Made by a program: the position numbers and the translations under genes. The notes under the pieces were generated by a model. The model saw only the letters and a program-made list of their open reading frames with translations. It was not told the origin of the DNA and made no database searches. 33,276 bases of DNA from Chimaeribacter coloradensis (lineage in GTDB: Bacteria; Pseudomonadota; Gammaproteobacteria; Enterobacterales; Enterobacteriaceae). Location: the NCBI RefSeq assembly GCF_002858715.1, contig NZ_PJZH01000034.1, positions 1-33,276 of the forward strand. The letters are read 5' to 3'. Shown here one piece after another: positions 4,162-33,276 of this stretch (the first letter of the stretch is position 1; every line of letters starts with the position of its first letter).

Positions 4162-5322
4162 ATGCGATATAGTTCGATAGCGTTGTGTACCCTCTTAGGC
4201 AGTATAACCCTCACCCCCAGTCAGGCCGCCGAACCCTTTAAACCGGAACGCATCAGCGTAGAAAAAAATATTGCGCCCGGCCCGAATATTTATGTGCTGG
4301 ACCAGAACTGGAAAGGGGCGAGCACCATTACCGTCCTCTCTGCCGATGACCTCTCCACCAAAGGAAATATCTCCGCCGGGTTAATCAGCCAGTTCACCTT
4401 GTCGCAGGATAAAAAACAGCTTTATACCGCCTCTGTCTATCCCAAACGAATTATGTCCGGCCCGACCGATGCCGTGGTGCAGGATTTTGACATCGCCACG
4501 TTAAGCCAAATCAAAGAGATGGAAACCCTGCCGAAAATGGCGCAGGTTGCGCCGTCAATTAACAGTTTCCAGCTCTCGGCCGGGGATAAATACGCCTTTG
4601 TGCAGAACGCCACCCCGGCCGCCTCGGTCTCTGTGATCAGCCTGGCGACCGGCCAGCACCTGCTGGAAGTGCCGACACCGGGGTGCTGGGGGATCTACCC
4701 CTCGCAGCAGCCGGGGAAATTCAGCGCCCTTTGCGGGGACGGCACTATCGCGACCTACCAGATCGCTGACGATGAGAAGAACTACCAGGCCGCCAAAAGC
4801 GCGAAACTGTTCGACAGCGACAAAGATGCCCTGTTCATCGCCGCGCAGCGGGACGGCGACCGCCTGATGTTCACCTCCTTCACCGGCAACATGGTGGTGG
4901 TGTCGGACAAAGAGGCCACCGCCACCTTGCAGGAGACGTTCAGCTATACCCAGGGCATCAAGGGCCATTGGGTGCCGGGCGGCTTCCAGGTGCTCGCCTA
5001 TAACAAACCCACCAACCTGATGTTCGTCACCATGCACCCCAACGGCAAAGAGGGCAGCCACAAAGATGCGGCCAAAGAGGTGTGGGGCATCGACATGGCG
5101 AGCCACAAGGTGGTGACGCGCTTCAAAGTGGATAACCCGATCGCGCTGGCGGTCAGCAACACGGCGCAGCCGCAGCTCTTTACCCTCAAAGACAATGAAG
5201 AGGGCGAGGGCGGCACGGTCACCCAATACCACTTTAGCAGTGATAAAAACGTCACTGCCAAAAAGCAGGGCAGCGTGAAGGGGCTGGGGGATTTCAACGT
5301 GATGCTGCGGGTGGATAACTGA
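4162..5322 (+). CDS. aauB: TTQ amine dehydrogenase, large (heavy) subunit
   Basis: This 386-residue exported protein belongs to the methylamine/aralkylamine dehydrogenase heavy-chain family, a seven-bladed beta-propeller that docks two TTQ light chains in the periplasm and helps form the substrate channel. It has a Sec signal peptide (about residues 1-22, cleaving after PSQA). Family marks include the TPGCWGIYPSQ segment with FSALCGDGT, and the HPNGKEGSHKDAAKEVWGIDMASHKVV segment. The ATG at 4162 has a GGAG ribosome site. The stop overlaps the next start (TGATG), indicating translational coupling. Motifs suit the aralkylamine (AauB) branch at least as well as MauB; the substrate cannot be settled from sequence. 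The gene leads a seven-gene unit. Confidence 0.88.
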   Translation: MRYSSIALCTLLGSITLTPSQAAEPFKPERISVEKNIAPGPNIYVLDQNWKGASTITVLSADDLSTKGNISAGLISQFTLSQDKKQLYTASVYPKRIMSGPTDAVVQDFDIATLSQIKEMETLPKMAQVAPSINSFQLSAGDKYAFVQNATPAASVSVISLATGQHLLEVPTPGCWGIYPSQQPGKFSALCGDGTIATYQIADDEKNYQAAKSAKLFDSDKDALFIAAQRDGDRLMFTSFTGNMVVVSDKEATATLQETFSYTQGIKGHWVPGGFQVLAYNKPTNLMFVTMHPNGKEGSHKDAAKEVWGIDMASHKVVTRFKVDNPIALAVSNTAQPQLFTLKDNEEGEGGTVTQYHFSSDKNVTAKKQGSVKGLGDFNVMLRVDN

Positions 5323-5867
5323 TGGCCGCCCTCTCCGGCATGCTGCACGTCAGTGTGCTCACCTTCCTGACGCTGCTGTTCAGCCAGGCGGCGCTGCATA
5401 AGCTCAGCGACCTGCGGCGCTTCTCCGGCTACGTGGCGGATTACGGCGTGCTGCCGCCGCGCCTGACGCTGCCGGTGACCCGGCTGCTGGCGGGTGCCGA
5501 AGCACTGGCGATTGCCCTGGCGCTGATCCCGGCGGCCTCGCAAACGGGGCTGGTGCTGATGGGCGCGCTGCTGGCGCTCTATGGCGGCGTGATGCTGCTG
5601 GCGCTGCGCCGCGGCAAACGCCGCATCGACTGCGGTTGCGGCGGCGTGGCCCAGCCGCTCTCCCGGCTGCTGGTGGTGCGCAACGGCCTGTTGCTGGCGC
5701 TGGCGGCGCTGGCCGCCCTGACCGGACACGCGCCGGTGGCCCTGCCCAACCTGGCGGTGGCGATGGTCGGCGGCGTGCTGCTGTGGGCCAGCTACCAGCT
5801 GCTTGAGCAACTGTTGCGCCTGCACAGCCTGCGCGCCGCCTTAACCCCGGACGCTGTTAACCCCTGA
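5322..5867 (+). CDS. aauE: MauE/AauE-type membrane maturation protein
   Basis: This 181-residue integral membrane protein has about four hydrophobic helices and a conserved CGCGG motif (Cys104 and Cys106) after the second or third helix. In the Mau system MauE is needed, with MauD, to make the disulfide-rich TTQ light chain; the family is a DoxX-like relative of redox membrane proteins. The gene shares its start with the stop of the large-subunit gene and precedes mauD, the order known from mau and aau clusters. The function is assigned from family and context. Confidence 0.85.
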   Translation: MAALSGMLHVSVLTFLTLLFSQAALHKLSDLRRFSGYVADYGVLPPRLTLPVTRLLAGAEALAIALALIPAASQTGLVLMGALLALYGGVMLLALRRGKRRIDCGCGGVAQPLSRLLVVRNGLLLALAALAALTGHAPVALPNLAVAMVGGVLLWASYQLLEQLLRLHSLRAALTPDAVNP

Positions 5868-5880
5868 CCCTGAGGTGCCC

Positions 5881-6486
5881 ATGACGACCCTGATCCTTTT
5901 TATGCTGGCGCTGCTGACGGTGCTGGTGGCCGTGCTGATTGTCGCCTTCTTTGCCCTGTCGCGGCAGGTGGGGGTGCTGTTTGAGCGCATCACGCCGGTG
6001 GGCGCGATGATCAATGACAACGGCCCGGCGATAGGCGACGCCTCCCCGCAGTTTACGCTGCAAAGCCTGAACCACGGCCCGGTGGCGATTGGCGGTGTGC
6101 AGCCGAAAAGCACGCTGGTGTTCTTCCTCTCGCCGACCTGCCCGATCTGCAAAACGCTGCTGCCGGTGGTGAAAAACCTGCGCCGCGCCGAAGGTGCCTG
6201 GCTGAATATCATCCTCGCCAGTGACGGCGACAGTGAAAAACAGCGCGCGTTTATCCAGCAGCAGCAGCTTGGCGACATTCCCTATGTGCTGTCGCAGGAG
6301 CTGGGCATGGCGTGGCGCGTGGCGAAACTGCCGTTCTCGGTGCTGATCAGCCCGCAGGGCATCATCACCGCCAAAGGGCTGATCAACAGCCGGGAGCAGT
6401 TCGAAAGCCTGTTTAACGCCCACGAGAGCGGCATCGAATCGATCCAGGCCTACAGCCGCAAGCCATCTTTGACCGCGAACCCTTAA
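5881..6486 (+). CDS. aauD: MauD/AauD-type thioredoxin-like maturation protein
   Basis: This is a membrane-anchored periplasmic thiol-disulfide protein of about 201 residues. An N-terminal anchor (about residues 3-25) is followed by a thioredoxin/peroxiredoxin-like fold with a CPIC active site (Cys87, Cys90) in SPTCPICKTLLP and a cis-proline region (KLPFSVLISPQG). MauD family proteins are required for disulfide formation or isomerisation in the TTQ light chain. The ATG at 5881 is preferred over an upstream GTG at 5875 because a GAGGTG ribosome site sits just before it. The gene lies 13 bases after mauE and shortly before the light-chain gene. Confidence 0.87.
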   Translation: MTTLILFMLALLTVLVAVLIVAFFALSRQVGVLFERITPVGAMINDNGPAIGDASPQFTLQSLNHGPVAIGGVQPKSTLVFFLSPTCPICKTLLPVVKNLRRAEGAWLNIILASDGDSEKQRAFIQQQQLGDIPYVLSQELGMAWRVAKLPFSVLISPQGIITAKGLINSREQFESLFNAHESGIESIQAYSRKPSLTANP

Positions 6487-6502
6487 CTGGCAGGAGACTA
6501 TG

Positions 6503-7036
6503 ATGAAATTTCTGACCTCTTTACTCGCATCCCTTGATGCGCTTTCCGAGCGCAAAATGCGCGATTCGGCCCGGCGGCTGGGGCGGCGCAGCTTCCTCGC
6601 CAAAACGGGCGCGGTGCTGGTCGGCACCGGGCTGATGCCGCTGCTGCCGTTTGACCGCTCCATGGGCAAGGCGTTTGCCGCCGCCCCGGCCGATGACCCG
6701 GCCTCCTGTGACTACTGGCGCTACTGCGCGCTGGACGGCAACCTCTGCTCTACCTCCGGCGGCAGCATGACCAGCTGCCCGCCCGGCGCGGAGGCCTCCA
6801 AAGTGGCGTGGGTCGGCACCTGCCGCAACCCGCATGACAAAAAGGACTACCTCGTCTCCTATAACGACTGCTGCGGCAAGGCCACGGTGGCGAACTCCAC
6901 CAGCTGCTTCACCAGCCAGGGCGAGCGCCCCGGCTACCGCATGGGGCTGCACAACGACATCAACTGGTGCATGGCGAATACCAACAAAGGCTACCACTGC
7001 ACGGTGGCGACACTGGTGGGGGTCGCCAATGAGTAA
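6503..7036 (+). CDS. aauA: TTQ amine dehydrogenase, small (light) subunit
   Basis: This is the catalytic light chain that carries the tryptophan tryptophylquinone cofactor and oxidatively deaminates a primary amine in the periplasm. A long N-terminal signal with RRLGRRSFLAKTG looks Tat-like, as in known light chains. The two TTQ tryptophans can be placed at W103 (VAWVGTC) and W155 (DINWCMAN), with the active-site Asp at D122 (SYNDCCGK) and Thr at T167 (HCTVA). RNPHDKKDYLVSYNDCCGK and ERPGY-LHNDINWCMAN resemble the Alcaligenes aralkylamine enzyme more than methylamine dehydrogenase. The mature part has ten cysteines instead of the twelve in MADH, one disulfide fewer. Tandem ATGs stand at 6500 and 6503; 6503 has better spacing from AGGAG. 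The 3' end overlaps the next gene by 8 bases. Confidence 0.9.
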   Translation: MKFLTSLLASLDALSERKMRDSARRLGRRSFLAKTGAVLVGTGLMPLLPFDRSMGKAFAAAPADDPASCDYWRYCALDGNLCSTSGGSMTSCPPGAEASKVAWVGTCRNPHDKKDYLVSYNDCCGKATVANSTSCFTSQGERPGYRMGLHNDINWCMANTNKGYHCTVATLVGVANE

Positions 7037-16668: not shown

Positions 16669-19600
16669 TCAGAACATCCGTTTGAAATTCAGCATCAGCC
16701 CCCGGTCGCTGATGCCGTCCTCGCGCCAGCTATAGGCGTCGATGCCGAGTTGGGTGTTCTCGCGGGTGTAGCTGACCCCGGCCTGCGCCAGGCCATTCAG
16801 GCCGCCGCCCTGCTGGCCGTCCTCCACGGTGAAGGTCTGCCCGTTCATACCCTGCAACGATGCAGTACGGCGGCTTTTGTTGTAACTCAGGTTCGGGCCG
16901 CCCTCCAGCGAGGCCTTCACCGCCCAGCCGTTTTTCCCGGCATAGCCCAGCGTCATCCCGATAACCGAGTCCACGGCGGTTTCACTGCCGCGGCCCATCG
17001 TCAGGTTGACGTCACCCGCACCCTGTTCGCGGTAGCCGCTCCCGGTGGTATAGCGCATTTTCAGCCCGGCGAACGGCGTGACCGTCAGCCCCTCCTGCAC
17101 GGTGTACGTTTTCTCCCCGGTGCTGCGCAGCTCCAGATACTGCTGGCGGCTGTCGGCGCTCGCCACCTTGTTGATGTCGCCGTAGCGCACCGTGCGGTTG
17201 CTGCTGAGGTTATGCAGGTCATAACGCAGCGCGTTCGTCCAGTTCAGGCCGCTGTCAGTGAGGGGCAGGGTGTGTGCCAGGCCGAAGAACTGGCTGTAAC
17301 CGCCGGTGATGCCGTTATCCCCGGGGCGGTTGCTGCCGTTGCCATCCAGCCGGGCAATACCGTACGCCAGCGCCAGCGTCTGGTTGCCCGCGAACGACAG
17401 ATGCTGGCGCAGGGCCAGCATGTCGTAGGTGGTGTCATTGCCCAGTTCGGCACGCTGGTCACCGCGCGCGACCGCGTTAAACGCCAGCCCGTTGGCCGAG
17501 ACCGGCGCGGCATCAGCCAGCATGTCAAAGCGCGTACTCAGTACCCGCGCATCCCGTGCGACGCGCTGTGCCTGGCTGCCGGAGAGCTGTTTCATCGCAC
17601 TGTTAAGCTCAGCGGCACTCTTCACGTTCAGGCTGTTAAACAGGGCATTGTTGGTGTAGGCGGCGTCCAGGGCTTTTGCCATGCTGCTGACGCCCGCGTC
17701 CGTCACGACCTGCGCATAGGCGTTTTTGGTCATGGTCACATCCACGTTGCCGCCGGCGTCTTTCTGGGCTGCCGCTGACCAGACCACGCTGGCGGATGTG
17801 ATGTTCTGCTCGCCCTGAATATCCCGGCCGACAAACACGTTGTCGAAAGTCTGGGTTTTGGCCGCTGTCCCGGCGGTAAAGCCGGTGTCCACGGTCACAT
17901 CCTGAATCACGGCGCGGTTGGCGGCCAGCGTCCCGGCGCTGCCGTCTGCGCGGGTGCCCACGGTGTACTGGCTGAGCGCGACCGGGGCCGTCGGGTCAAC
18001 CGGCAGGGTGTAGCTGGCGTAGTGTACTTCGGTGTTATCCCCCGTGTTGCCGTTAACCCCGGCGACCCCGACCCCGGCCTCTTTCACCAGGCCGCTGCCT
18101 GCCCCGGTGAGGTTCACCGTGCCGTTATTGACGAGGCGGCCATTTGCGCCGAGGCGGCTGAACGCGTAAGAGTTGCCGGCATGGATGTTGATAGTGCCGT
18201 TGTTCTCCAGCACCGCGTCGGCCGTGGCTCCGGCATCAAGTTGCATGGCAATCATGCCCGTCTCCGTGCTGCCTTCACTGCCGAGGTTAAGGGTGCCGTT
18301 ATTCACCAGCTGGGCATTCTGGCTGCCCCTCATGCCGATGGCACCGTTGCCGCTGAGCGTGATCGTCCCCTCGTTAAGCGCCTTCATGTTTTTGCTGCCG
18401 TCGCTGAAGTTAACGGCAATTTTATGGTTTCCCGTGCCGGTGGCGGCAAAATTCACCGCCCCCTGGGGCTGATTCCAGAACCAGCCGGTAACGTCGGCGG
18501 CGGTTTGCCCGTTACGTGAGTTAACGAAGGTGACTTTGCTCACGTTCGCCGTACCGTTGTTGATAATGACACCGGCACTGTTCAGGTTAACGGCACCGCC
18601 GTTATTGCCGTTGGTGAGGGTCAGGGTACCGTGGTTAACCAGGGTCCCGCGGGTGCCGATATAAATCGCGTTGGCGGTGTTCTGGGTAAAGGTTCCGCTG
18701 GTGTCATTCAAAAACAGCGACGTATCGCGGATATAGGTCAGCCCCTTATCTTTGACGCTGCCGGCTGTCGGGTCAGCCACCATGCTGCCCTGGTTGGTCA
18801 GGGTGCTGCTGCCGTAAAGGTCGGCCCCTTTGGTCAGCGTGCCGGTATTAACAAGGTTGCTGCTGCCGCTGGTTCTTATATTGCCGTTCACGGTACCGCT
18901 GTTATTCAGCGTGCCGCCGGTGAAACTGAGTGTACTGGCCCCATAACTGCCGCCGTTAAGGGTACCGGCGTTATTCAGCGTGCCGGTGGTGTTGACCGGG
19001 GCATCAATGACCGCCCCGCTTTGATTGGTCAAGGTGCCGTCTACCAGCAGGGTGCCGCTGCCGTTCACCGTGCCGGTGTTGCTGACGGTGCTGCCTTCAA
19101 GAATAACCGTACTCTCTGCCAGGGTAGTCACGCCGCTTAAGGTGGTGCCGTCAGTAAATTCAGGTGTGGTCACGCTGCCGCTGTTATCCGCCGTGGCCGG
19201 CACCCCGGCGCCCAGAGTAATCTGCCCGCGGTTGATAATGCGGTTATTAACATTCCCGTCAGAAAAGAAAGCGACGCCGTTTTCGGCATTGATATTAATG
19301 ATGCCGGTGGTGTCATTAATGGCTGTGCCCCCGCCATACGCTGCCATACCAGACAAAGGCTCATTGCCGGTGTAATTTTCATTTTTAGCCAGGTTGATAG
19401 TGCCCTGGTTGATCACCTGATTCGTCGTTCCGTACGCCACCATACCGGCACCGGCGTTATTAATGGTAATCGTGCCGCCCTGGCGATTAATTGCGACCGC
19501 ACCGGAAGCGGTGCCTGCATAGTTATCTAATCCTGCATTCATCCCTATAGCAAAACTGCGGTCTAAATTTGAAGGAATGTCTGGGGAAAGTTCAGTCTGA

Positions 19601-21606
19601 TCATTGGGATTTTTCCACATCGCATCCGCATTGATGACGCCATAGTTTTCTGCCTGCCCTGTATCACCTGCTTCCATGGCAACGCCTCTGCCATACATTT
19701 CTAATGTACCCTGAGCGTTATTGATAATAGAGGCTGAGGTGCCCACGGCAGCCATAAGCTCTATGGAGGCGACTGAGCTATTGGCTGAAAAATCATTTGT
19801 CGTGCTATATTCTTGATAGAGATTGATTATACTATTTTGATTCATGACTTTGCCGGTAAGCGTGCCCTCATTTACTGCACTGGAACTCTTCCGCGCCGCC
19901 AGCGCAGTAAAAGGCCCGCTTTTCATCTCCCGGGACTTGCTGGTTCTGTTTATTTCAACTTTTCCTTCATTATTTATCGCGGAGTCTGTATCGGTGAGTT
20001 TAATAAATATCATATCTTCTATAAAAACCTCGCCCTTAGTAACAGCCGTCGCTCCAGATGATAGAGAAATGATGTTGCTCGGGTCCATGAAGAAGTTATA
20101 GTTAGTAATCTGGGCATCCCGGTTATCAAATGTTGCCCCGTCCGTTATTTCAAGGTGTGCGCCCTGGGATAATGTAATTAATGGGCCGCTGTTTGCCGGG
20201 AATTCTCCGCTCATGCGGGAAGCACCGCTGAGATAGATCGAGGATTGCCCCTCAACCTGGATCAAAGCAGTATTACCCTGTCCGGTACGGGCAGTAGCGA
20301 TGGCATCTCCTGCAGTAATATCTCTCATTTGATCTTTTTCACCAACCAGCTCAATACCTTTCAAAAAATCCACCCGATTTCCATTCCCGCTGATAATCGC
20401 GCCGTTGATATTTTCCTGAGATCCAGCCTTCTTGGAATATTGGTGACCCGCATCTTCCGTATCCGCTATCACCTGCAAATGCCCATCCAGCACTACGCTA
20501 TTATTACTGCCACCCACCTTAATCCCGGTAGACGGGATATAAAAATAATCAGCCGCCAGCGCAGAGGCTTGATCTTTATCGACTACCATATTGCCGGTCA
20601 GGGTGACGGCGTTGGCTTCCCCCTGCACATCCACGCCCGTTGACTGATAGCCGGTGACGGACATGGTAGGTGACGTCAGGTTAACGCGGTTCTCTTTGCC
20701 GGAAGTTTTCAGGCCGGTGGAAAAATCAATAACTTCCAGTGTGCCGATTTGATTAACTTCATTACTGTCACCTGCGATCCCCAGCCCCAGGCTGGGCCGG
20801 GTAGGGTCAGTACTGTGGACGTGTAAATCGCCTACATTAATGACGCTGTTGCTGTCACCGTTGACGTTGGTGCCGGTGCTGCCGTCACTGACGTCGGTCG
20901 CACCGTTGTTATTAATTGTATTGTTGTTGCCGGTGATATCAGTGCCCGTTGCTCCATCCGTGATGCTGCTGCTGCCATTATTGTTAATGGTATTATCATC
21001 ACCGGTGACATTGGTACCTGTTGCGCCCTCCGCAACGCTGCTGTTGCCGTTATTATTAATGGTATTTTCATTACCAGTCACATCCGTGGCGATAGATCCT
21101 TGCCCGGTGGCGGTGCTGGCACCCTCATTGTTAATAATATTACTGTTGCCGTCTATTTTGGACGCCGTACTGCCGTTCGACGCGTCAGTTCCTCCGTTGA
21201 AGGTAATCGCATAATCATCACCCTGAATATAGGTGCCAATTTCCCCAGGTTCGTCCGCAACTACTTTATTATCATAATTAATGGGAGTTTCATTATCGCC
21301 GCCATTATCTCCGCCATTATCACTGCTGCTGCCGGCATCACTATCATCATCATTGTTATTCGCGATTACCGCGATAGTCACGGCCAGTGCCGCTGCGCCA
21401 CCCGCTATCCATGGCCAGTTTTGTTGCAGAAACGTGGGAGGTGTCCGGCATTGTGACGGCAGCGCAGCGCGTTGCGCCTGCGATAATTTACCGATATCCG
21501 TCGGACAGCCTGCTGCTGGTTTTTGATTGCCAATTTCATCGGCTGATAAACAGTGATGACTAAAAATCAATGCGATAGAGATTGATGTTAATTCATTCAT
21601 TTTCAT
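16669..21606 (-). CDS. Autotransporter (type Va) with repeat-rich passenger
   Basis: This 1645-residue surface protein has a signal-like N-terminus (1-22), an unusual second hydrophobic stretch (about 66-82, WIAGGAAALAVTIAVIA) followed by acidic/Asn-rich sequence, and a beta-helix passenger rich in GNxNTINNNG and NxGTV turns. The last roughly 280 residues form the outer-membrane beta-barrel ending in LNFKRMF, with the terminal Phe typical of barrels. A linker with LADAAPVSANGLAFNAVARGDQR precedes the barrel. The ATG at 21606 is chosen for its GAGGAA site; upstream in-frame codons to 21753 lack a signal peptide. The first third is visibly more AT-rich than the rest. It is probably an adhesin or biofilm factor, but the ligand is unknown. 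Confidence 0.85.
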   Translation of the reverse strand: MKMNELTSISIALIFSHHCLSADEIGNQKPAAGCPTDIGKLSQAQRAALPSQCRTPPTFLQQNWPWIAGGAAALAVTIAVIANNNDDDSDAGSSSDNGGDNGGDNETPINYDNKVVADEPGEIGTYIQGDDYAITFNGGTDASNGSTASKIDGNSNIINNEGASTATGQGSIATDVTGNENTINNNGNSSVAEGATGTNVTGDDNTINNNGSSSITDGATGTDITGNNNTINNNGATDVSDGSTGTNVNGDSNSVINVGDLHVHSTDPTRPSLGLGIAGDSNEVNQIGTLEVIDFSTGLKTSGKENRVNLTSPTMSVTGYQSTGVDVQGEANAVTLTGNMVVDKDQASALAADYFYIPSTGIKVGGSNNSVVLDGHLQVIADTEDAGHQYSKKAGSQENINGAIISGNGNRVDFLKGIELVGEKDQMRDITAGDAIATARTGQGNTALIQVEGQSSIYLSGASRMSGEFPANSGPLITLSQGAHLEITDGATFDNRDAQITNYNFFMDPSNIISLSSGATAVTKGEVFIEDMIFIKLTDTDSAINNEGKVEINRTSKSREMKSGPFTALAARKSSSAVNEGTLTGKVMNQNSIINLYQEYSTTNDFSANSSVASIELMAAVGTSASIINNAQGTLEMYGRGVAMEAGDTGQAENYGVINADAMWKNPNDQTELSPDIPSNLDRSFAIGMNAGLDNYAGTASGAVAINRQGGTITINNAGAGMVAYGTTNQVINQGTINLAKNENYTGNEPLSGMAAYGGGTAINDTTGIININAENGVAFFSDGNVNNRIINRGQITLGAGVPATADNSGSVTTPEFTDGTTLSGVTTLAESTVILEGSTVSNTGTVNGSGTLLVDGTLTNQSGAVIDAPVNTTGTLNNAGTLNGGSYGASTLSFTGGTLNNSGTVNGNIRTSGSSNLVNTGTLTKGADLYGSSTLTNQGSMVADPTAGSVKDKGLTYIRDTSLFLNDTSGTFTQNTANAIYIGTRGTLVNHGTLTLTNGNNGGAVNLNSAGVIINNGTANVSKVTFVNSRNGQTAADVTGWFWNQPQGAVNFAATGTGNHKIAVNFSDGSKNMKALNEGTITLSGNGAIGMRGSQNAQLVNNGTLNLGSEGSTETGMIAMQLDAGATADAVLENNGTINIHAGNSYAFSRLGANGRLVNNGTVNLTGAGSGLVKEAGVGVAGVNGNTGDNTEVHYASYTLPVDPTAPVALSQYTVGTRADGSAGTLAANRAVIQDVTVDTGFTAGTAAKTQTFDNVFVGRDIQGEQNITSASVVWSAAAQKDAGGNVDVTMTKNAYAQVVTDAGVSSMAKALDAAYTNNALFNSLNVKSAAELNSAMKQLSGSQAQRVARDARVLSTRFDMLADAAPVSANGLAFNAVARGDQRAELGNDTTYDMLALRQHLSFAGNQTLALAYGIARLDGNGSNRPGDNGITGGYSQFFGLAHTLPLTDSGLNWTNALRYDLHNLSSNRTVRYGDINKVASADSRQQYLELRSTGEKTYTVQEGLTVTPFAGLKMRYTTGSGYREQGAGDVNLTMGRGSETAVDSVIGMTLGYAGKNGWAVKASLEGGPNLSYNKSRRTASLQGMNGQTFTVEDGQQGGGLNGLAQAGVSYTRENTQLGIDAYSWREDGISDRGLMLNFKRMF
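20860..21150 (-). repeat. Tandem 72-75 bp repeats coding 24-25 residue beta-helix units
   Basis: Four head-to-tail units lie inside the autotransporter gene: 21076-21150 (25 codons), then 21004-21075, 20932-21003 and 20860-20931 (24 codons each). Each encodes the pattern G-x-x-N-x-I-N-N-x-G, then about eight variable residues, then T-G/D-x-V/I-T/N. Degenerate copies continue further into the passenger (GDSNSVINVG, GDSNEVNQIG, GKENRVNL, GEANAVTLTG, GSNNSVVLDG). The array is near-identical enough at DNA level to allow slippage or recombination. Confidence 0.85.
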
Positions 21607-21975
21607 GGTGGTTCCTCGTGATGCGGGCGTCGCATGGCTGCACAGCAATAAGAAGCTGGCCCGATAACTATTTATAGGGTTAAATGGTTCCATAAATAAA
21701 CTGTTATTTTCGGCGAAATTTATCCAGATAATAATAAAAGTGCGTGAATCCATAGGGTAGTGCCGTAATGTGTAGATTTTTATGTTTTTTATTTATAGTC
21801 GTAAAGTGCTAAAAAATTATCGTGATAATTAAACTATAAAATTATTTTGAGTGTTTATTAATGATGATATTTTCGCAGGCGCTGAATCAATTTGTCAGAA
21901 AAAATGCCTGGCGATTTTATTAATTATGATCGGATGTGATGTTTAGTCAAGAAAGCGTAAGGGGTGTAAATAAAT
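21607..21975. other. AT-rich leader region of the autotransporter gene
   Basis: About 370 bases, markedly AT-rich from 21700 to 21950. It holds a sigma-70-like promoter on the minus strand and otherwise no gene or RNA that I can support. Such composition is typical of H-NS-bound horizontally acquired promoters; that is inference. Confidence 0.4.
21923..21950 (-). promoter_or_regulatory. Candidate sigma-70 promoter for the autotransporter gene
   Basis: On the minus strand TTGACT (21945-21950) and CATAAT (21923-21928) are separated by 16 bases, each matching five of six consensus bases. Transcription would start near 21916 and leave a 5' leader of about 310 bases before the ATG at 21606. Confidence 0.45.
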
Positions 21976-26184: not shown

Positions 26185-28089
26185 TTACCCGCCCGGTTGC
26201 CAAATCGCGTCGCGCACGTGGATCGGGCGGGGCAGCAGGCCGAGGGCGTAGAAGCGGTCGGCAATGGTTTGCTGGTCGCGGATCACCTGGTTGTCCATCA
26301 GTTGGGTGCGGTGGCGGCGGCGGGCCAGCGCCTGCTCCAGGGCGGGTGAGGGCAGGCCGAGTTCACCGGCGAGGTGGCGGGCGGCCTGCGCCCGTTCGGT
26401 GTCGATGTAGTGGCCGGTCTGTTGCAGGGCGTGCAGCAGCGGCTGGAGGATGTCGGCGGAGCGGGCCGCGTAGTCGCGCCGTGCCAGATAAAACTGCTGG
26501 TTCAGCACCCGGTCCCGGCCGTCGGCAATCACCCGCAGGGTGCCGCTGCGCTCGGCGTCGCTGAGCAGCGGGTCCCACATCATCCAGGCGTCGGCGGCGT
26601 GGTAGTCGCTGGGGGCCAGCGGGTATTTCGGCGGCGCGTAAACAATGCGCACATCCTCCAGCGTTAACCCCTCTTCATCCAGCATCTGCACCAGCAGGTA
26701 GTGCACGTTCGACCCTTTGTTCACCATGATCCGCTTGCCGCGCAGGTCAGCCAGGGTGCGCACCGGGCTGTGGGCCGCCACCACCATCGCCACGCTTTGC
26801 GGGGCGGGCGGGTCGTAGGCCACATAGACCAGCGGGCTGCCGTCAGCCTGGGCGAAAATCGGCGGCACTTCGCCGGTGGTGCCGAAGTCGATCTCATTAT
26901 TCTGCAACGCCTGCAACAGTTGCGGCCCGGCCGGGAACTCGCTCCACAGCACCGAGACGTCATGCTGGGCGAACAGCGTCTCCAGGCTTTGCCGCGCTTT
27001 AAGGATGCCGAGGTTGCCGAACTTCTGGTAGCCGATGCGCAGCTCGCGCCCGGCGGGCGGGCGGGGCGGGGTGAGAGCCGGGTGGGCAGGCTTATTGCGC
27101 CCTTTGATCACCCCCATATTGGCAAGGTGGGTGCGCAAACTGTGGCGGCTGATGCCGAGCAGCGCTGCCGCCTGCATCTGGTTGCCGTCGCTGGCCGCCA
27201 GCGCGTGGCGCACCAGCGCATTCACCATACGCGGCAAGAGTTGCGGGGTGCCGCCGGCCAATTGCTGGCGGATGAACCCCTCCAGCCCGTCATCGGCACT
27301 GTCCGGCGCGGGCGCTTCCTGGTTCAGCCGCAGCTGGCGCGGGGTAATCTCGCGCTCTTTATTCAGCAGCACCGCATTATGCAGGGTGTTTTCCAGCTCG
27401 CGCACGTTGCCCGGCCAGCTGTAGCCGCGCAGCGTCTCCAGCGCTTCCGGTGAGAGCTGCATCTGCGGGCGGCCGAGGCGGCGGGCATACAGCTTGAGGA
27501 AATGTGCCGCCAACACCGGAATATCCTCACGGCGCTGGCGCAGCGGCGGCAGGGTCACCGCCGCCACGTTCAGCCGGTAGTAGAGATCCTCCCGGAACCG
27601 TTTCTCGCGGATCGCCTGCGCCAGATCGACATGGGTGGCGGCAATCACCCGCACGTTGATGCGCACCGGCTGGCGGGAGCCGACGCGGGTAATCTCACGC
27701 TCCTGCAACACCCGCAGCAGCTTGACCTGAAGCGACAGGCTCAGCTCGCCGATCTCATCCAGCAGCAGGGTGCCGCCTTCTGCTGCCTCAAACCAGCCCT
27801 GCTGCCGCTGATCCGCGCCGGTAAACGCCCCCTTCTCATGCCCGAACAGCTCCGCTTCCGCCAGGCTTTCGCTCAATGCGCCGCAGTTTACCGCCAGAAA
27901 AGGTTGCTGACGCCGCGCGCTGTGGTGATGCAGATAGCGCGCCACCACCTCTTTGCCGGTGCCGGTTTCGCCCACAATCAGCACGGTGGCATCGGTGGGG
28001 GCCAGCTGGTCAAGCAGGCTCTGGAACGCCACAGAGGCGGGGTCGATCAGCACCGGGTGATCGGCGGCATAAGGCAGCGGGCTTGGCAT
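26185..28089 (-). CDS. Sigma-54 activator fused to an SsuA-like sulfonate-binding domain
   Basis: This 634-residue fusion has a short N-terminal lead, an AAA+ sigma-54 activator domain with Walker A GETGTGKE (40-47), GAFTGA (87-92), Walker B LLLDE (108-112) and WPGNVRELEN (225-234), and a Fis-type HTH (about 302-325). A linker rich in Pro leads to a full SsuA-type solute-binding domain (349-634: RELRIGYQKFGN, WSEFPAGPQLLQAL, IDFGTTGEVPPIFAQADGSPLVYVAYDPP). There is no signal peptide, so that domain must work in the cytoplasm, presumably as sensor for an alkanesulfonate-like ligand. The ATG at 28089 has AGGAG 8 bases upstream; in-frame sequence to 28257 would read through the operator. It faces the sulfur operon and very likely activates it. 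Confidence 0.9.
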   Translation of the reverse strand: MPSPLPYAADHPVLIDPASVAFQSLLDQLAPTDATVLIVGETGTGKEVVARYLHHHSARRQQPFLAVNCGALSESLAEAELFGHEKGAFTGADQRQQGWFEAAEGGTLLLDEIGELSLSLQVKLLRVLQEREITRVGSRQPVRINVRVIAATHVDLAQAIREKRFREDLYYRLNVAAVTLPPLRQRREDIPVLAAHFLKLYARRLGRPQMQLSPEALETLRGYSWPGNVRELENTLHNAVLLNKEREITPRQLRLNQEAPAPDSADDGLEGFIRQQLAGGTPQLLPRMVNALVRHALAASDGNQMQAAALLGISRHSLRTHLANMGVIKGRNKPAHPALTPPRPPAGRELRIGYQKFGNLGILKARQSLETLFAQHDVSVLWSEFPAGPQLLQALQNNEIDFGTTGEVPPIFAQADGSPLVYVAYDPPAPQSVAMVVAAHSPVRTLADLRGKRIMVNKGSNVHYLLVQMLDEEGLTLEDVRIVYAPPKYPLAPSDYHAADAWMMWDPLLSDAERSGTLRVIADGRDRVLNQQFYLARRDYAARSADILQPLLHALQQTGHYIDTERAQAARHLAGELGLPSPALEQALARRRHRTQLMDNQVIRDQQTIADRFYALGLLPRPIHVRDAIWQPGG

Positions 28090-28169
28090 GGTGTGAACTC
28101 CTGACGGCAAGGGTGGGAAAAGCTTATCCCACTGCAACGCGCCGGACGAGAGGGGCAGAGGCCACCGGC

Positions 28170-28215
28170 GTTGCAAATGCAACAGCCTGCGCAGGCCGGT
28201 TGTTGCATTTGCAAC
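28170..28215. promoter_or_regulatory. Paired palindromes, probable upstream activator sites
   Basis: GTTGCAAATGCAAC (28170-28183) and GTTGCATTTGCAAC (28202-28215) are near-perfect palindromes and exact reverse complements of each other. Their centres are 32 bp apart, about three helical turns, with a GCCTGC/GCAGGC palindrome between. They lie about 98 and 130 bp upstream of the predicted sigma-54 start site, a normal distance for enhancer sites, and 80-125 bp upstream of the activator's own ATG, so autoregulation is possible. Confidence 0.75.
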
Positions 28216-28260
28216 AACGCGGAGAGTTGCCGGCTTCCACAACGCGTTGAAAATCATAAA

Positions 28261-28278: not shown

Positions 28279-28295
28279 TTGGCACGCATTCTGCT
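28279..28295 (+). promoter_or_regulatory. Sigma-54 (RpoN) promoter of the sulfur operon
   Basis: TTGGCACG followed by CATTCTGCT gives the invariant GG (28281-28282) and GC (28293-28294) with exactly 10 bases between. Only one position of the TTGCW half deviates. Transcription should start near 28306, about 58 bases before ssuD. Confidence 0.8.
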
Positions 28296-28363
28296 TTCTC
28301 TTTTATAACCAAACTCGGATATTCATTCGATAAATAACAGATAACGTTATATAGGAATCACAT

Positions 28364-29521
28364 ATGAGCCAGGCAGCAGACGGGACAATCAAAGTTTTCT
28401 GGTTTTTACCGACCCACGGTGACGGCCGCTATCTGGGCACCACGCAAGGCGGTCGCCCGGTTGATTTACAGTATTTACAACAGGTTGCGCTGGCCGCGGA
28501 TAACCTCGGCTACTACGGCGTGCTGATCCCGACCGGCAAAAGCTGCGAGGACTCCTGGCTGGTGGCCTCGGCGCTGGCCCCGATCACCCGGCGGCTGCGT
28601 TACCTGGTGGCGGTGCGCCCCGGTTTGCAACCACCCAGCCTGGCGGCGCGCATGGCCGCGACGCTGGACCGGCTCTCCGAAGGGCGTTTGCTGATTAACG
28701 TGGTGACCGGCGGCGACCCGGTGGAGAACAAAGGCGACGGCATTTTCCTGAGCCATACTGAACGTTATGAAGTCACGGAAGAGTTCCTGAACGTCTACTC
28801 CCGTCTGCTCAAAGGCGAAAAAGTGGACTTCGAAGGCAAGCACATCCACGTCGAAGGGGCGGAGATCCTCTTCCCGCCGGTGCAGGAGAACGGCCCGCCG
28901 CTCTACTTCGGCGGCTCTTCACCGGAAGCGATCGACGTCGCTGCCGGGCAGATTGACAGCTACCTGACCTGGGGCGAGCCGGTAGAGCAGGTGGCCGAGA
29001 AGATTGCGGTGGTGCGCCAGCGGGCAGAGGCGCGCGGCCGCACCCTGAGTTACGGCATCCGCCTGCATGTGATTGTGCGGGAGACGGAAGAGGAGGCATG
29101 GGCCGCCGCCGACCGCCTGATCGCCCATGTGGATGAAGAGACCATCGCCGCGGCGCAGAAGATCTTCGCCCGCATGGACTCCACCGGGCAGGCGCGCATG
29201 AGCGCATTGCATCAAGGCTCGCGTGACGGCCTGCGCATCGGCCCGAACCTCTGGGCGGGCGTCGGGCTGGTGCGCGGCGGCGCGGGCACCGCGCTGGTGG
29301 GCAGCCCGGAGCAGGTGGCCGAGCGCATCCGCGAATATCAGGCGCTGGGGATCGAGAACTTCATCCTCTCTGGTTACCCGCACCTGGAAGAGGCGCACCG
29401 TTTTGCCGAGCTGGTGATGCCGCTGCTGCCGCTGGACAGTGCCGCCCAGCCGCGGGCGCGCACCGTGAACACCGGGCCGTTTGGGGAAACCATCGGCGGC
29501 GATAAGCGACCGGGAAAATAG
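28364..29521 (+). CDS. ssuD: FMNH2-dependent alkanesulfonate monooxygenase SsuD
   Basis: This 385-residue luciferase-like TIM-barrel enzyme cleaves alkanesulfonates to sulfite and an aldehyde with reduced FMN and oxygen in the cytoplasm. Extensive identity with E. coli SsuD is visible: [11 protein letters not shown]-like start, IPTG-SCED (active-site region Cys61), VTGGDP, SERY-type loop, [24 protein letters not shown] (Arg/His around 233-235), [17 protein letters not shown] and [11 protein letters not shown]. It is first in the sigma-54-controlled operon. The usual partner flavin reductase SsuE and the SsuABC importer are not in the window, so reduced flavin must come from elsewhere or from a downstream product. 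Confidence 0.93.
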
Positions 29522-29571
29522 GTTTCCGGGCGGACTGTCGCCCGTTCCCTCTGCCTTCAAAGGAGCATGTG

Positions 29572-30678
29572 ATGCCTGAGCAACCGAACCGTACTGCCCC
29601 TATCCAGTTTGCCTACTGGGTGCCGAATGTCTCCGGCGGGCTGGTGGTCAGTAAGATCCCGCAGCGCACCGGCTGGGATGCGGAGTACAACCGTACCCTG
29701 GCGCAGATCGCCGAACGCGCGGGGTTTGATTACGCCCTGACCCAGATCCGCTTTACCGCCGGTTACGGGGCGGATAACCAGCACGAGTCGGTGGCCTTTT
29801 CCCAGGCGCTGCTGGGCGCAACGACGCGGCTGAAAGTGATCGCCGCATTGCTGCCCGGCCCCTGGCACCCGACGCTGGCGGCCAAACAGATCGCCACCAT
29901 CAGCCACCTCAGCCAGGCGCGTATTGCGGTGAACATTGTCAGCGGCTGGTTCCGCGGCGAGTTCAAGGCGATAGGCGAACCCTGGCTCGACCACGAAGAG
30001 CGTTACCTGCGCTCCGAGGAGTTTATCCGCTGCCTGCGGGGGATCTGGCAACAGGAGAGCTTTACCTTCGCCGGGGATTTCTACCGCTACCGCGACTATG
30101 TGATGAAACCCAAACCGCTCGACCCGTTGCCGGAAATTTTCCAGGGCGGCAGTTCGCGGGCGGCACGGGACATGGCGGCCCGGGTCTCGGACTGGTACTT
30201 CACCAACGGCAACAGCGTGGAGAATATCCGCCGCCAGATCGACGACATCCAGGCCAAAGCCCGGGAGAACGGCCATCAGGTGAAGATTGGGGTCAATGGG
30301 TTTGTCATCGCCCGTGACAGTGAGCAGGAGGCGCAACAGGTGCTGCACACGATTCTGGCGCACGCCGATCCGGCGGCGGTGCAGGGCTTCCACCATGAGG
30401 TGCAGAATGCCGGGCGCGCCTCGCCGGAGGGCGAGGGCAACTGGGCGGCCTCAACGCTGGAGGATCTGGTGCAATACAACGACGGGTTCAAAACCAACCT
30501 GATCGGCACGCCGCAGCAGATCGCGGAGCGCATCATCGCCTATAAAAATGCCGGTACGGATCTGATGCTGCTTGGCTTCCTGCATTTTCAGGAGGAGGTG
30601 GAGTACTTCGGCCGGGAAGTGCTGCCTCTGGTGCGGGCGCTGGAGCAACAGCAGCAGGCGGTGGCGGAGCATGGCTAA
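29572..30678 (+). CDS. sfnG: FMNH2-dependent dimethylsulfone monooxygenase SfnG
   Basis: This luciferase-like flavin monooxygenase of about 368 residues closely follows SfnG of Pseudomonas putida: FAYWVPNVSGGLVVSKIPQRT, YALTQIRFTAGYGA, QHESV, KVIAALLPGPWHP, AVNIVSGWFRGEF and EIFQGGSS. SfnG converts dimethylsulfone to methanesulfinate, which can feed methanesulfonate and SsuD/MsuD-type enzymes. The ATG at 29572 is chosen over a GTG at 29569 because AGGAG sits 6 bases before it. It lies 50 bases after ssuD, and its stop overlaps the start of the next gene, so all are likely one operon. Confidence 0.93.
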   Translation: MPEQPNRTAPIQFAYWVPNVSGGLVVSKIPQRTGWDAEYNRTLAQIAERAGFDYALTQIRFTAGYGADNQHESVAFSQALLGATTRLKVIAALLPGPWHPTLAAKQIATISHLSQARIAVNIVSGWFRGEFKAIGEPWLDHEERYLRSEEFIRCLRGIWQQESFTFAGDFYRYRDYVMKPKPLDPLPEIFQGGSSRAARDMAARVSDWYFTNGNSVENIRRQIDDIQAKARENGHQVKIGVNGFVIARDSEQEAQQVLHTILAHADPAAVQGFHHEVQNAGRASPEGEGNWAASTLEDLVQYNDGFKTNLIGTPQQIAERIIAYKNAGTDLMLLGFLHFQEEVEYFGREVLPLVRALEQQQQAVAEHG

Positions 30679-32074
30679 GCCGCGGGTGGTGATCATCGGC
30701 GGCGGCTTCACCGGTACGGCGCTGGCGATCCATCTGGCGCGCCTCAGCCCGGAGGGGCTGGCGATCACGCTGGTGGAGCCGCGCCCGCTGCCCGGCCACG
30801 GCGTCGCCTATTCGGCGCAGGACCCGGCGCACCGCATCAATGTGCCGGCCGGGCGGATGTTCCTCTCCGCGGCGGAGCAGGGGGAGTTTGAGCGCTGGTA
30901 CCAAAGCAGCCCCGCCTTCGCCGATGACCCGGCCGCGCACTGGGAAGACGGCAAACTCTACCCGCAGCGCGCCGCGTTTGGCCGCTTTGTGGCGGAGAAA
31001 TTCTTTGAGGCGGCGGCCACCACGCCTTCGACGCTGCGCCATCTGCGTGACCGGGCGACGCGCCTGCACGGCTGCACCGTGGAGACCGCCGGCGGCATTG
31101 AACTGCGCGCCGAAGCGGTGGTGCTGGCCATCAGCCACCCGCCGCCCGCGCTGCCCGGCTCCGTGGCGCACGCGCTGGGCAACAGCCCGGCGCTGATTGC
31201 TGACCCGTGGCTGCCCGGCGCGCTGGACGCCATTGGTGAACGGGAGCGGGTGGCGGTTATCGGTACCGGCCTGAGCATGGCGGATGTGGTGGCCTCGCTG
31301 CACCGGCGCGGCCACCGCGGCCCGTTGATCGCCTTCTCGCGCCGCGGCCTGCTGCCACGCCCCAATGCACGCGGCGACTATGCACCCTGGCCGTTCCTGC
31401 CGGCCACGCTGCCGCAGCTCTCCCTGCGCGGCTGGCTGCGGCGTACCCGGCAGGAGATCGCCGCGGCGGCGGAGCTGGGCGTCAGCTGGCAGGCGGTGCT
31501 GGACGAGGTGCGCGCGCGTGGCCAGCAGATCTGGCCGTCGCTGTCGCTCAAGGATCAGAAACAGTTTTTGCGCCACCTGCGCCCGTGGTGGGATGTTCAC
31601 CGCTACCGCATCGCGCCGCAGGTGGCCGCCGCCATCGGCAACGCGCAGGCCGAAGGGCGGTTGCAGGTGCTGGCCGCGCGGTTGCAGCACCTCGCACCGC
31701 ACGGTGACGCCGTCACGCTCTCCCTGCAACTGCGCCACGGCGGCACGCAGCAACATCAGGTTGACCGGGTGATCGTCACCACCGGCCCGGCGCACGGCGC
31801 GCTGCTGGAGAGCCAGCCGCTGCTGCACCAGCTTGAGCGCCAGGGCGTGTTACAGGCCGATCCCCTCGGCCTCGGCATTCTGGTAAACGGCCATGCTGAA
31901 ACCCTGAACCGGCAGGGCGAGGCCAACCCGCGCCTGCTGGTGGCCGGCCCGGCGGCACGCGGCCGCTTCGGCGAGCTGATGGGGCTGCCGCAGGTGGCCG
32001 AACATGCCGAGGCGGTGGCCCGCCGCCTGCTGCATAACCTGCACACCGGCGGGCGATGTCCCGCGTCACGCTGA
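30671..32074 (+). CDS. FAD/NAD(P)-binding oxidoreductase of unknown role
   Basis: This 467-residue two-dinucleotide-fold protein of the NAD_binding_9 type has an N-terminal FAD loop IIGGGFTGTALAIHLA (about 6-21), PLPGHGVAYS and INVPAGRMFLS, and a second nucleotide loop VAVIGTGLSMADVV. The ATG at 30671 lies inside the sfnG 3' end with GGAG just before it, implying translational coupling. Such proteins are often annotated only as FAD/NAD(P)-binding. Placed between two reduced-flavin monooxygenases, it might supply electrons or act on a sulfur intermediate; this is inference and no substrate can be read from the sequence. Confidence 0.82.
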   Translation: MAKPRVVIIGGGFTGTALAIHLARLSPEGLAITLVEPRPLPGHGVAYSAQDPAHRINVPAGRMFLSAAEQGEFERWYQSSPAFADDPAAHWEDGKLYPQRAAFGRFVAEKFFEAAATTPSTLRHLRDRATRLHGCTVETAGGIELRAEAVVLAISHPPPALPGSVAHALGNSPALIADPWLPGALDAIGERERVAVIGTGLSMADVVASLHRRGHRGPLIAFSRRGLLPRPNARGDYAPWPFLPATLPQLSLRGWLRRTRQEIAAAAELGVSWQAVLDEVRARGQQIWPSLSLKDQKQFLRHLRPWWDVHRYRIAPQVAAAIGNAQAEGRLQVLAARLQHLAPHGDAVTLSLQLRHGGTQQHQVDRVIVTTGPAHGALLESQPLLHQLERQGVLQADPLGLGILVNGHAETLNRQGEANPRLLVAGPAARGRFGELMGLPQVAEHAEAVARRLLHNLHTGGRCPASR

Positions 32075-32149: not shown

Positions 32150-33276
32150 ATGTCTCAGCAACCGACCGTGCCTGGAAAACGTGAAATCCGCCTTAATGCT
32201 TTCGACATGAACTGTGTCGGCCACCAGTCCCCCGGGCTGTGGGCGCACCCGCGCGACCGCTCCTGGGAGTATAAGGATCTGGCCTACTGGACCGATCTGG
32301 CGCGCCTGCTGGAGCGCGGCAAGTTCGACGGCCTGTTTATCGCCGATGTGCTCGGCGTGTATGACGTGCTCAACGGCAGCGGCGAGGCCGCCATCCGCCA
32401 GGCGACGCAGGTGCCGGTAAACGACCCGCTGGCGCTGATCACCCCGATGGCGCTGGTGACGGAGCACCTCGGCTTCGGCCTTACCGCCTCGCTGTCGTTT
32501 GAGCACCCGTACCCCTTCGCCCGCCGCCTCTCCACGCTCGATCACCTCACCAAAGGGCGCATCGGCTGGAACATCGTCACCTCCTACCTGGAGAGCGGCG
32601 CACGCAACCTCGGCCATTCGGCGCAGAGCGACCACGATGCGCGCTACGACTATGCCGATGAATATTTGCAGGTGGTCTACAAGCTGCTGGAAGGAAGCTG
32701 GGAAGAGGGCGCGGTGCTGCGTGACCGCGAACGCCGCCTCTTCAGCGACCCGGGCAAAATCCACCCGATTAACCATCAGGGCACCTTCTTTCAGGTGCCG
32801 GGGATGCACCTGTGCGAACCCTCGCCGCAGCGCACGCCGGTGCTCTATCAGGCCGGGGCGTCGAGCCGCGGCAAGCAGTTTGCCGCCGAACATGCCGAGT
32901 GTGTGTTTGTGGCTGCGCCGTCTAAAGTGCTGCTGAAGAAGACGGTGGCGGACATCCGCCGCCGCGCCGCCGAAGCGGGACGCGACCCGCGCAGTGTGCT
33001 GATCTTCAACCTGCAAACGGTGATTGTCGGCGAAACGGACAAACAGGCGCAGGCCAAATGGCAGGAGTACAAATCCTACGTCAGCTATGAGGGCGCGCTG
33101 GCGCTGATCTCCGGCTGGACGGGCATCGATTTCGGCCAGTATGCGCCGGACCAGGTGCTGAAACACCTGCACACCAACGCCATCCAGTCTGCGGTGGAGA
33201 CCTTCTCGACGGCTGATCCCAACCGCCAGTGGACGGTGCAGGCGCTGGCGGACTGGGTCGGCATCGGCGGATTTTG
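32150..33276 (+). CDS. NtaA/SnaA/DszA/DmoA-family FMN-dependent monooxygenase (3' end missing)
   Basis: An open frame runs from the ATG at 32150 (GGAG 6 bases upstream) through the window edge, giving 375 codons of a family usually around 450. Family marks are RLNAFDMNCVGHQSPGLWAHP, YWTDLARLLERGKFDGLFIADVLGVYD, SFEHPYPFARRLSTLDHLTKGRIGWNIVTSYLESGARNLG, HEGTFF-like NHQGTFFQVPGMHLCEPSPQRTPVLYQAGASSRGKQFAAEHAECVFV. Members oxidise nitrilotriacetate, pristinamycin, dibenzothiophene sulfone or dimethylsulfide with reduced FMN. Next to sfnG and ssuD, an organosulfur substrate such as dimethylsulfide is plausible but unproven. Confidence 0.9.
   Translation, partial: MSQQPTVPGKREIRLNAFDMNCVGHQSPGLWAHPRDRSWEYKDLAYWTDLARLLERGKFDGLFIADVLGVYDVLNGSGEAAIRQATQVPVNDPLALITPMALVTEHLGFGLTASLSFEHPYPFARRLSTLDHLTKGRIGWNIVTSYLESGARNLGHSAQSDHDARYDYADEYLQVVYKLLEGSWEEGAVLRDRERRLFSDPGKIHPINHQGTFFQVPGMHLCEPSPQRTPVLYQAGASSRGKQFAAEHAECVFVAAPSKVLLKKTVADIRRRAAEAGRDPRSVLIFNLQTVIVGETDKQAQAKWQEYKSYVSYEGALALISGWTGIDFGQYAPDQVLKHLHTNAIQSAVETFSTADPNRQWTVQALADWVGIGGF

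Follow-up and report, generated by a model that had tools for sequence, protein, structure and literature searches.

A sigma-54 activator of the SfnR type carries an SsuA-type domain behind its DNA-binding domain in Chimaeribacter coloradensis and other Enterobacterales, and may sense a sulfonate with it

The window, i.e., the whole stretch of DNA that was analysed (33,276 nucleotides, a complete contig), comes from Chimaeribacter coloradensis. On its minus strand, a frame running from 28089 to 26185 without internal stops, with AGGAG 8 bases 5' of its ATG, encodes a protein of 634 residues (P0001), which we call the fused regulator. About 20 residues precede the first domain, as the initial annotation had indicated by finding almost nothing N-terminal of it. 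This domain is the AAA+ domain of sigma-54 activators with its lid (residues 22-262, 27304..28026; Pfam Sigma54_activat at 22-178 with 233 bits, AAA_lid_14 at 184-262). A Fis-type HTH follows (residues 293-319, 27133..27213; HTH_8, 25 bits against a cut-off of 22); it is the sole HTH match in Pfam, and a LysR-type HTH is absent. After a linker (residues 331-345, 27055..27099), the protein ends with an SsuA-type sulfonate-binding domain (residues 346-630, 26200..27054), matched by NMT1 of Pfam at 374-558 and by the NCBIfam model TIGR01728 (SsuA_fam) at 350-630 with 171.6 bits, above its cut-off of 163.5. The narrower model PRK11553 scored 250.9 bits, below its cut-off of 299. In the translation, we take GETGTGKE for Walker A, GGTLLLDE for Walker B, and GAFTGA for the loop of that name, which reads GAFSGA in one of 13 rows compared. 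Thus, the order AAA+, HTH and SsuA in one frame, proposed from the DNA letters, was confirmed.

AlphaFold prediction on 31 fused proteins gave a mean pLDDT of 81.8 and a pTM of 0.49, the latter leaving the arrangement of the domains towards each other uncertain. Across the SsuA part pLDDT was mostly 80-95, and it fell below 50 at residues 331-345. The top five Foldseek matches were all to SsuA, that of X. citri (with MOPS, MES, and 3e4r) and that of E. coli; the activator ZraR came next. SsuA is normally made with a signal peptide and is a periplasmic partner of an ABC transporter. The domain described here is complete and internal to the 634-residue frame, and it therefore lacks a signal peptide, as had been claimed, and is predicted to be cytoplasmic.

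The same full-length fusion was found throughout the genus (four of four genomes) and in 28 of the 246 family genomes (the own genome being counted in both), with the other family members 58-91% identical. In an order-level draw it occurred in 4 of 295 genomes, all of the same family. In a phylum-level draw, 10 of 398 genomes matched, three with the full-length protein (same family) and seven with the activator part only (one other family, f30); with an Acetobacteraceae protein as the query, the figures were nine matches, three full-length and six activator-only. A scan of named genomes gave at least 600 stretches, at least 580 of them confirmed, the best 80 of which comprised 56 fused loci and 24 loci of stand-alone SsuA. 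The 56 include one that ends at a contig edge (L117) and one with broken frames (L128), and ten of them, taken to duplicate loci of the genome draws, were counted once. Altogether, the same domain order was present on at least 75 distinct contigs besides that of the window, nearly all from Enterobacterales. Among the best 80 matches, fused loci came from Serratia, Lonsdalea, Ewingella, Rouxiella, Erwinia, Raoultella, Pantoea, Hafnia, Klebsiella, Enterobacter, Kluyvera, Tatumella, Rosenbergiella and other Enterobacterales, and, outside this order, from Acidisoma silvae and an Acetobacteraceae metagenome-assembled genome (MAG). A search of E. coli genomes with the fused regulator was negative at E 1e-50.

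In the plasmid collection, 72 records matched P0001, 71 of them across at least 80% of its length (65 from Pantoea, two from Klebsiella, two from Methylocystis, and one each from Chimaeribacter, Azospirillum and Pseudomonas, the last being broken into four pieces). The nearest, at 88%, is a plasmid of Chimaeribacter arupi, and the fused order is also present on the Azospirillum and Methylocystis plasmids. These copies bear on the trivial explanation that a sequencing or assembly error had joined two genes. We found no support for it, database copies carrying two kinds of names, those of a regulator or of a substrate-binding protein. Neither a stop nor a frameshift was seen around residues 329-348, where a break had been thought possible, and the frame is uninterrupted in the window as well as in numerous independent assemblies, including complete plasmids. 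Since the full-length fusion recurs in so many genomes of the genus and the family, an artefact or chance fusion is excluded. As for the names, fused copies are listed as Fis-family regulators or, in Azospirillum and Chimaeribacter, as "aliphatic sulfonate ABC transporter substrate-binding protein" (e.g., L165, 5687-7864, and L166, 9001-10902). With several copies going under the name of a transporter component, the family can easily escape notice.

The activator part, AAA+ with HTH, is 50.3% identical to a P. aeruginosa protein encoded beside msuE-msuD, which we presume to be SfnR2. SfnR (SfnR1, SfnR2) of Pseudomonas is the sigma-54 activator of dimethylsulfone and methanesulfonate genes, and its own expression is reportedly under CysB. 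In PMC8234197, the msu operon is grouped with sfnR1 and sfnR2. Moreover, the sole non-fused matches in the phylum-level draw of 398 genomes, the f30-family proteins, are 51-53% identical. Judged by these identities, the activator part is SfnR-like and not that of an arbitrary sigma-54 activator. The Sigma54_activat domain with its GAFTGA loop, which marks a sigma-54 activator, is present, and rpoN was found in the same genome; the fused regulator is predicted to act on a sigma-54 promoter.

Divergent from the fused regulator, four genes lie on the plus strand: an FMNH2-dependent alkanesulfonate monooxygenase of the SsuD/MsuD family (28364..29521; NCBIfam), the dimethylsulfone monooxygenase SfnG (29569..30678; TIGR04021, 598 bits against a cut-off of 383), an FAD/NAD(P)-binding protein (30674..32074; Pfam PF13454), and a monooxygenase of the NtaA/DmoA family (32153..33276; NCBIfam), incomplete at the contig end. 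The first is 70.6% identical to P. aeruginosa MsuD versus 63.2% to E. coli SsuD. Methanesulfonate, a late product of dimethylsulfone oxidation, is the substrate of MsuD, and, as the window's SsuD is nearer to MsuD, it is also the likely substrate here.

We examined whether the fused regulator always sits beside ssuD and sfnG, and only the first half of this expectation held. An SsuD homologue 76-99% identical to that of the window was divergent from the regulator in 29/29 fused loci of the genome draws, and ssuD was divergent or near in 52/56 fused loci among the best 80 matches (in L104, L119 and L128 the gene is broken into two or three frames); it was lacking in the remaining four, L117, at a contig end, L089, L129 and L131. 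In contrast, sfnG was present at just 8/29 and 14/56 fused loci, some stretches ending early, and constant linkage to sfnG was rejected. The FAD protein was present at 25/29 and 49/56 loci, with the same limit. In Acidisoma, msuE and sfnG lie 3' of the fused regulator; in L131, msuE follows it and the contig then ends. In Azospirillum, msuE-sfnG is divergent from the regulator and ssuD lies downstream, and in Methylocystis sfnG and ssuD are near. Separate stand-alone SsuA genes, 36-41% identical to the domain, occur in the stretches of 11/29 and 15/56 fused loci (the L128 copy is a fragment), sometimes immediately behind the fused regulator (L046 to L067, L079 to L128).

Motif scans of the region between the regulator and ssuD revealed two upstream palindromes, CGTTGCAAATGCAACA at 28169..28184 and, 32 bases from it, TGTTGCATTTGCAACA at 28201..28216, as putative operators 1 and 2, and a putative sigma-54 -24/-12 promoter of the divergent operon, TGGCACGCATTCTGCT, on the plus strand at 28280..28295. 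In 30 intergenic regions, those of the window and of 29 further loci, which are related and not independent, at least two sites like TGTTGCANNTGCAACA occurred in 15, 27 and 30 regions at up to two, three and four mismatches, mostly 195-198 and 163-166 bases 5' of the ssuD start. The GG-N10-GC promoter was present in 30/30 regions, 82-88 bases 5' of the ssuD start in 29 of them. In 200 rounds of shuffling, sites at up to three mismatches were found in a mean of 0.46 and a maximum of 4 of the 30 regions, and the promoter in a mean of 0.19 and a maximum of 2. At up to one mismatch, the own genome had three sites, two of them at the fused locus, with one match to the reversed control pattern; in four genomes the numbers were 3, 3, 10 and 7, two being at the fused locus in each. 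As palindromes also occur elsewhere in these genomes, a regulon cannot be deduced from the motif by itself. Rfam found nothing in the window above a gathering score; a C4-antisense-target model reached 21.2 on the palindromes against a cut-off of 46.7.

Similar arrangements precede msu genes or sfnG in other bacteria. A perfect TGTTGC-N4-GCAACA with a -24/-12 sequence lies before P. aeruginosa msuE, and the palindrome with such a promoter lies before the msu genes of L069 and L071. With one or two mismatches, palindrome and -24/-12 sequence precede msuE of B. glumae, Azospirillum and L131 (Acetobacteraceae) and sfnG of Methylocystis. In both L070 and L071, the longest sfnG frame is preceded, at 30 bases, by a perfect palindrome; the start of the frame is probably set too early, as the promoter match falls inside it. 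In Acidisoma, a single palindrome (two mismatches) lies 5' of the fused regulator, and the scanned stretches have no -24/-12 match. At up to two mismatches, palindromes were absent from L068, L069, L072, L073 and L074 (a rescan of L069 with a free centre gave one), and none was present in the 350 bases 5' of the P. aeruginosa SfnR2-like gene. From their conservation, we infer that the palindromes are putative SfnR-type operators. The fused locus therefore resembles SfnR systems in the identity of AAA+ and HTH, in the type of palindrome and promoter known from P. aeruginosa msuE, and in the linked msuD and sfnG homologues. It differs in that SfnR-type proteins stop after the HTH (361-385 residues), whereas the fused regulator adds the SsuA domain.

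According to PMC3839906, X. citri SsuA holds the sulfonate by Gln36, Gly68, Gly86 and Ser141, with Trp185 facing the pocket. These residues align with Q355, G388, G406, N461 and W505 of the fused regulator, four of the five being identical and Ser141 being replaced by Asn461. All five were as in the window in 30/30 regulator domains. In 31 stand-alone SsuAs, the window's residue was kept at positions 1, 2 and 5 in all 31 and at position 3 in 29, while position 4 was Asn in 12, Asp in 11, Ser in six and Gly in two. TauA likewise holds its ligand by Gln, two Gly and Thr, as described in PMC6906117. Several groups of stand-alone SsuAs have these contacts too, so the ligand cannot be read from them. 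The domain also resembles E. coli SsuA (40% identity, whole domain aligned). It differs from SsuA proteins in being joined to an activator and not secreted, in Asn for Ser at one contact, and in the motif [DN]ARAA, present in 26/31 stand-alone SsuAs versus 0/30 regulator domains. This loss indicates a changed surface and, with the separate SsuA genes at some fused loci, would suit a domain that no longer senses and serves oligomerisation or contact with a partner, such as a sulfonate transporter. We regard this as distinctly improbable, as the pocket positions are constant in 30/30 regulators while the remainder varies. It is a reasonable inference that the domain senses an intracellular sulfonate, and that it senses a ligand of some kind, with either sign of control, is very probable.

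Two relatives bear on this sensor reading. In the 29th matching genome of the family (G111, locus L066), the match is limited to residues 10-338: the regulator stops after the HTH (352 residues), ssuD is gone, and the gene beyond the intergenic region is that of the FAD protein; this region keeps one palindrome (two mismatches) and a -24/-12 sequence. In a Pantoea MAG (L089), the SsuA domain is kept and ssuD is gone. We count the joint loss in G111 for the sensor reading and L089 against it; L089 also contradicts the idea that domain and ssuD are always lost together. In the activator tree, L066 lies inside a 27-row clade of fused Enterobacterales (100/99), within which the forks are unresolved, so that L066 could branch first. 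Domain loss is the simpler reading, because the Acetobacteraceae, Azospirillum and Methylocystis proteins outside the clade are fused. All fused activators form one clade apart from SfnR in the best tree, with support of 62/88 and a single very long outgroup; an alternative clade without Acidisoma was not rejected (p-AU of 0.308). In the domain tree, the 31 stand-alone SsuAs and the 30 regulator domains fall on opposite sides of a single branch (100/99); the rows of Azospirillum and Methylocystis are long, with a program warning that their joining may be false. This fits a single capture of the SsuA domain, the capture itself having been suggested at the outset.

The nearest parallel in mechanism, by analogy, is VnfZ/VnfA3 of Azotobacter vinelandii. 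According to PMC9542535, VnfZ is a substrate-binding-protein paralogue without a signal peptide that is needed for the action of the sigma-54 activator VnfA3, which we count as a precedent for sensing by the SsuA domain. Unlike in the fused regulator, VnfZ is a separate protein of another, vanadate-binding family, and VnfA3 is a GAF-type activator. The same source proposes that VnfZ acts on its activator when vanadium is absent, which lends some support to the opposite sign of control: the domain would bind a signal of sulfur sufficiency (sulfite, sulfate or another anion) and shut the activator off, the empty form being active. One conserved stretch also sets the regulator domains apart from stand-alone SsuAs, so that the ligand could have shifted. 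However, X. citri SsuA binds alkanesulfonates and not sulfate (PMC3839906), and the contact positions are kept in the regulators; we thus hold the opposite sign to be unlikely. The LysR-type sulfur regulators CysB and Cbl also place a two-lobed effector domain after an HTH, and CysB is said to be held off by sulfate, a further point for this alternative. They differ from the fused regulator in lacking an AAA+ domain and sigma-54, as it does from them in having AAA+ and no LysR match in Pfam.

We consider it fairly probable that the fused regulator is an SfnR-type activator whose cytoplasmic C-terminal SsuA domain switches the operon on in response to a short sulfonate, perhaps methanesulfonate. 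We favour this activator-type reading because the domain order, the conserved fusion, the kinship with SfnR, the palindromes with the promoter, and the contact positions agree. The protein would bind the two palindromes before the divergent msuD/ssuD-sfnG operon. A short alkanesulfonate, made in or imported into the cell, would close the two SsuA lobes and alter the contact of the domain with the neighbouring HTH/AAA+ part, which would allow the ring to assemble, hydrolyse ATP and open the sigma-54 promoter. In contrast to control by SfnR, which has no SsuA domain, the operon would thereby be expressed solely when the substrate is present.

Sigma-54 activators are mostly understood as proteins in which an N-terminal sensor restrains or frees the AAA+ ring, and in a conserved family with the sensor behind the DNA-binding domain the signal would have to travel by a different route. 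A 2011 survey (PMC3162934) gives four usual architectures, in none of which a sensor follows the HTH, and about 136 Pfam domain compositions. The SsuA domain after the HTH indeed departs from the sensor-first rule, as first remarked in the initial annotation, and, given that many compositions, the architecture may already be listed in a database. An account of it was not found among the openly licensed papers listed in the literature searches. More tentatively, at somewhat less than even confidence, the proteins may be a separate class of sigma-54 activators that arose by one capture of a transport substrate-binding protein, now in the cytoplasm and behind the HTH, whose closure on its sulfonate would directly gate the AAA+ ring; a LysR-like layout would thus have been reinvented, and shared by alphaproteobacteria and Enterobacterales, partly on plasmids. 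With a relative of SfnR that bears a sensor, it becomes possible to test to which signal the sulfur pathway responds, G111 and Pseudomonas SfnR being natural comparisons without the SsuA domain.

Some other features of the window deserve mention. Between the -12 element and the ssuD start, at 28304-28351, lies a conserved TATAAC...GTTATA inverted repeat, both halves of which are present in 28/30 loci, the second directly 5' of the AGGA ribosome site; GTTATA is found at a similar place before E. coli ssuE. The repeat may act as an operator or form a hairpin in the leader. On the minus strand, a frame of 1694 residues (16669-21753) with many short N-rich repeats and BigA_beta as its sole Pfam match looks by eye like an autotransporter. 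Finally, a methylamine dehydrogenase-type cluster is present at 4162-7036 in this Enterobacterales contig, with the heavy chain (PF06433), MauE (PF07291), the light chain (PF02975), and a protein without a Pfam match between them.
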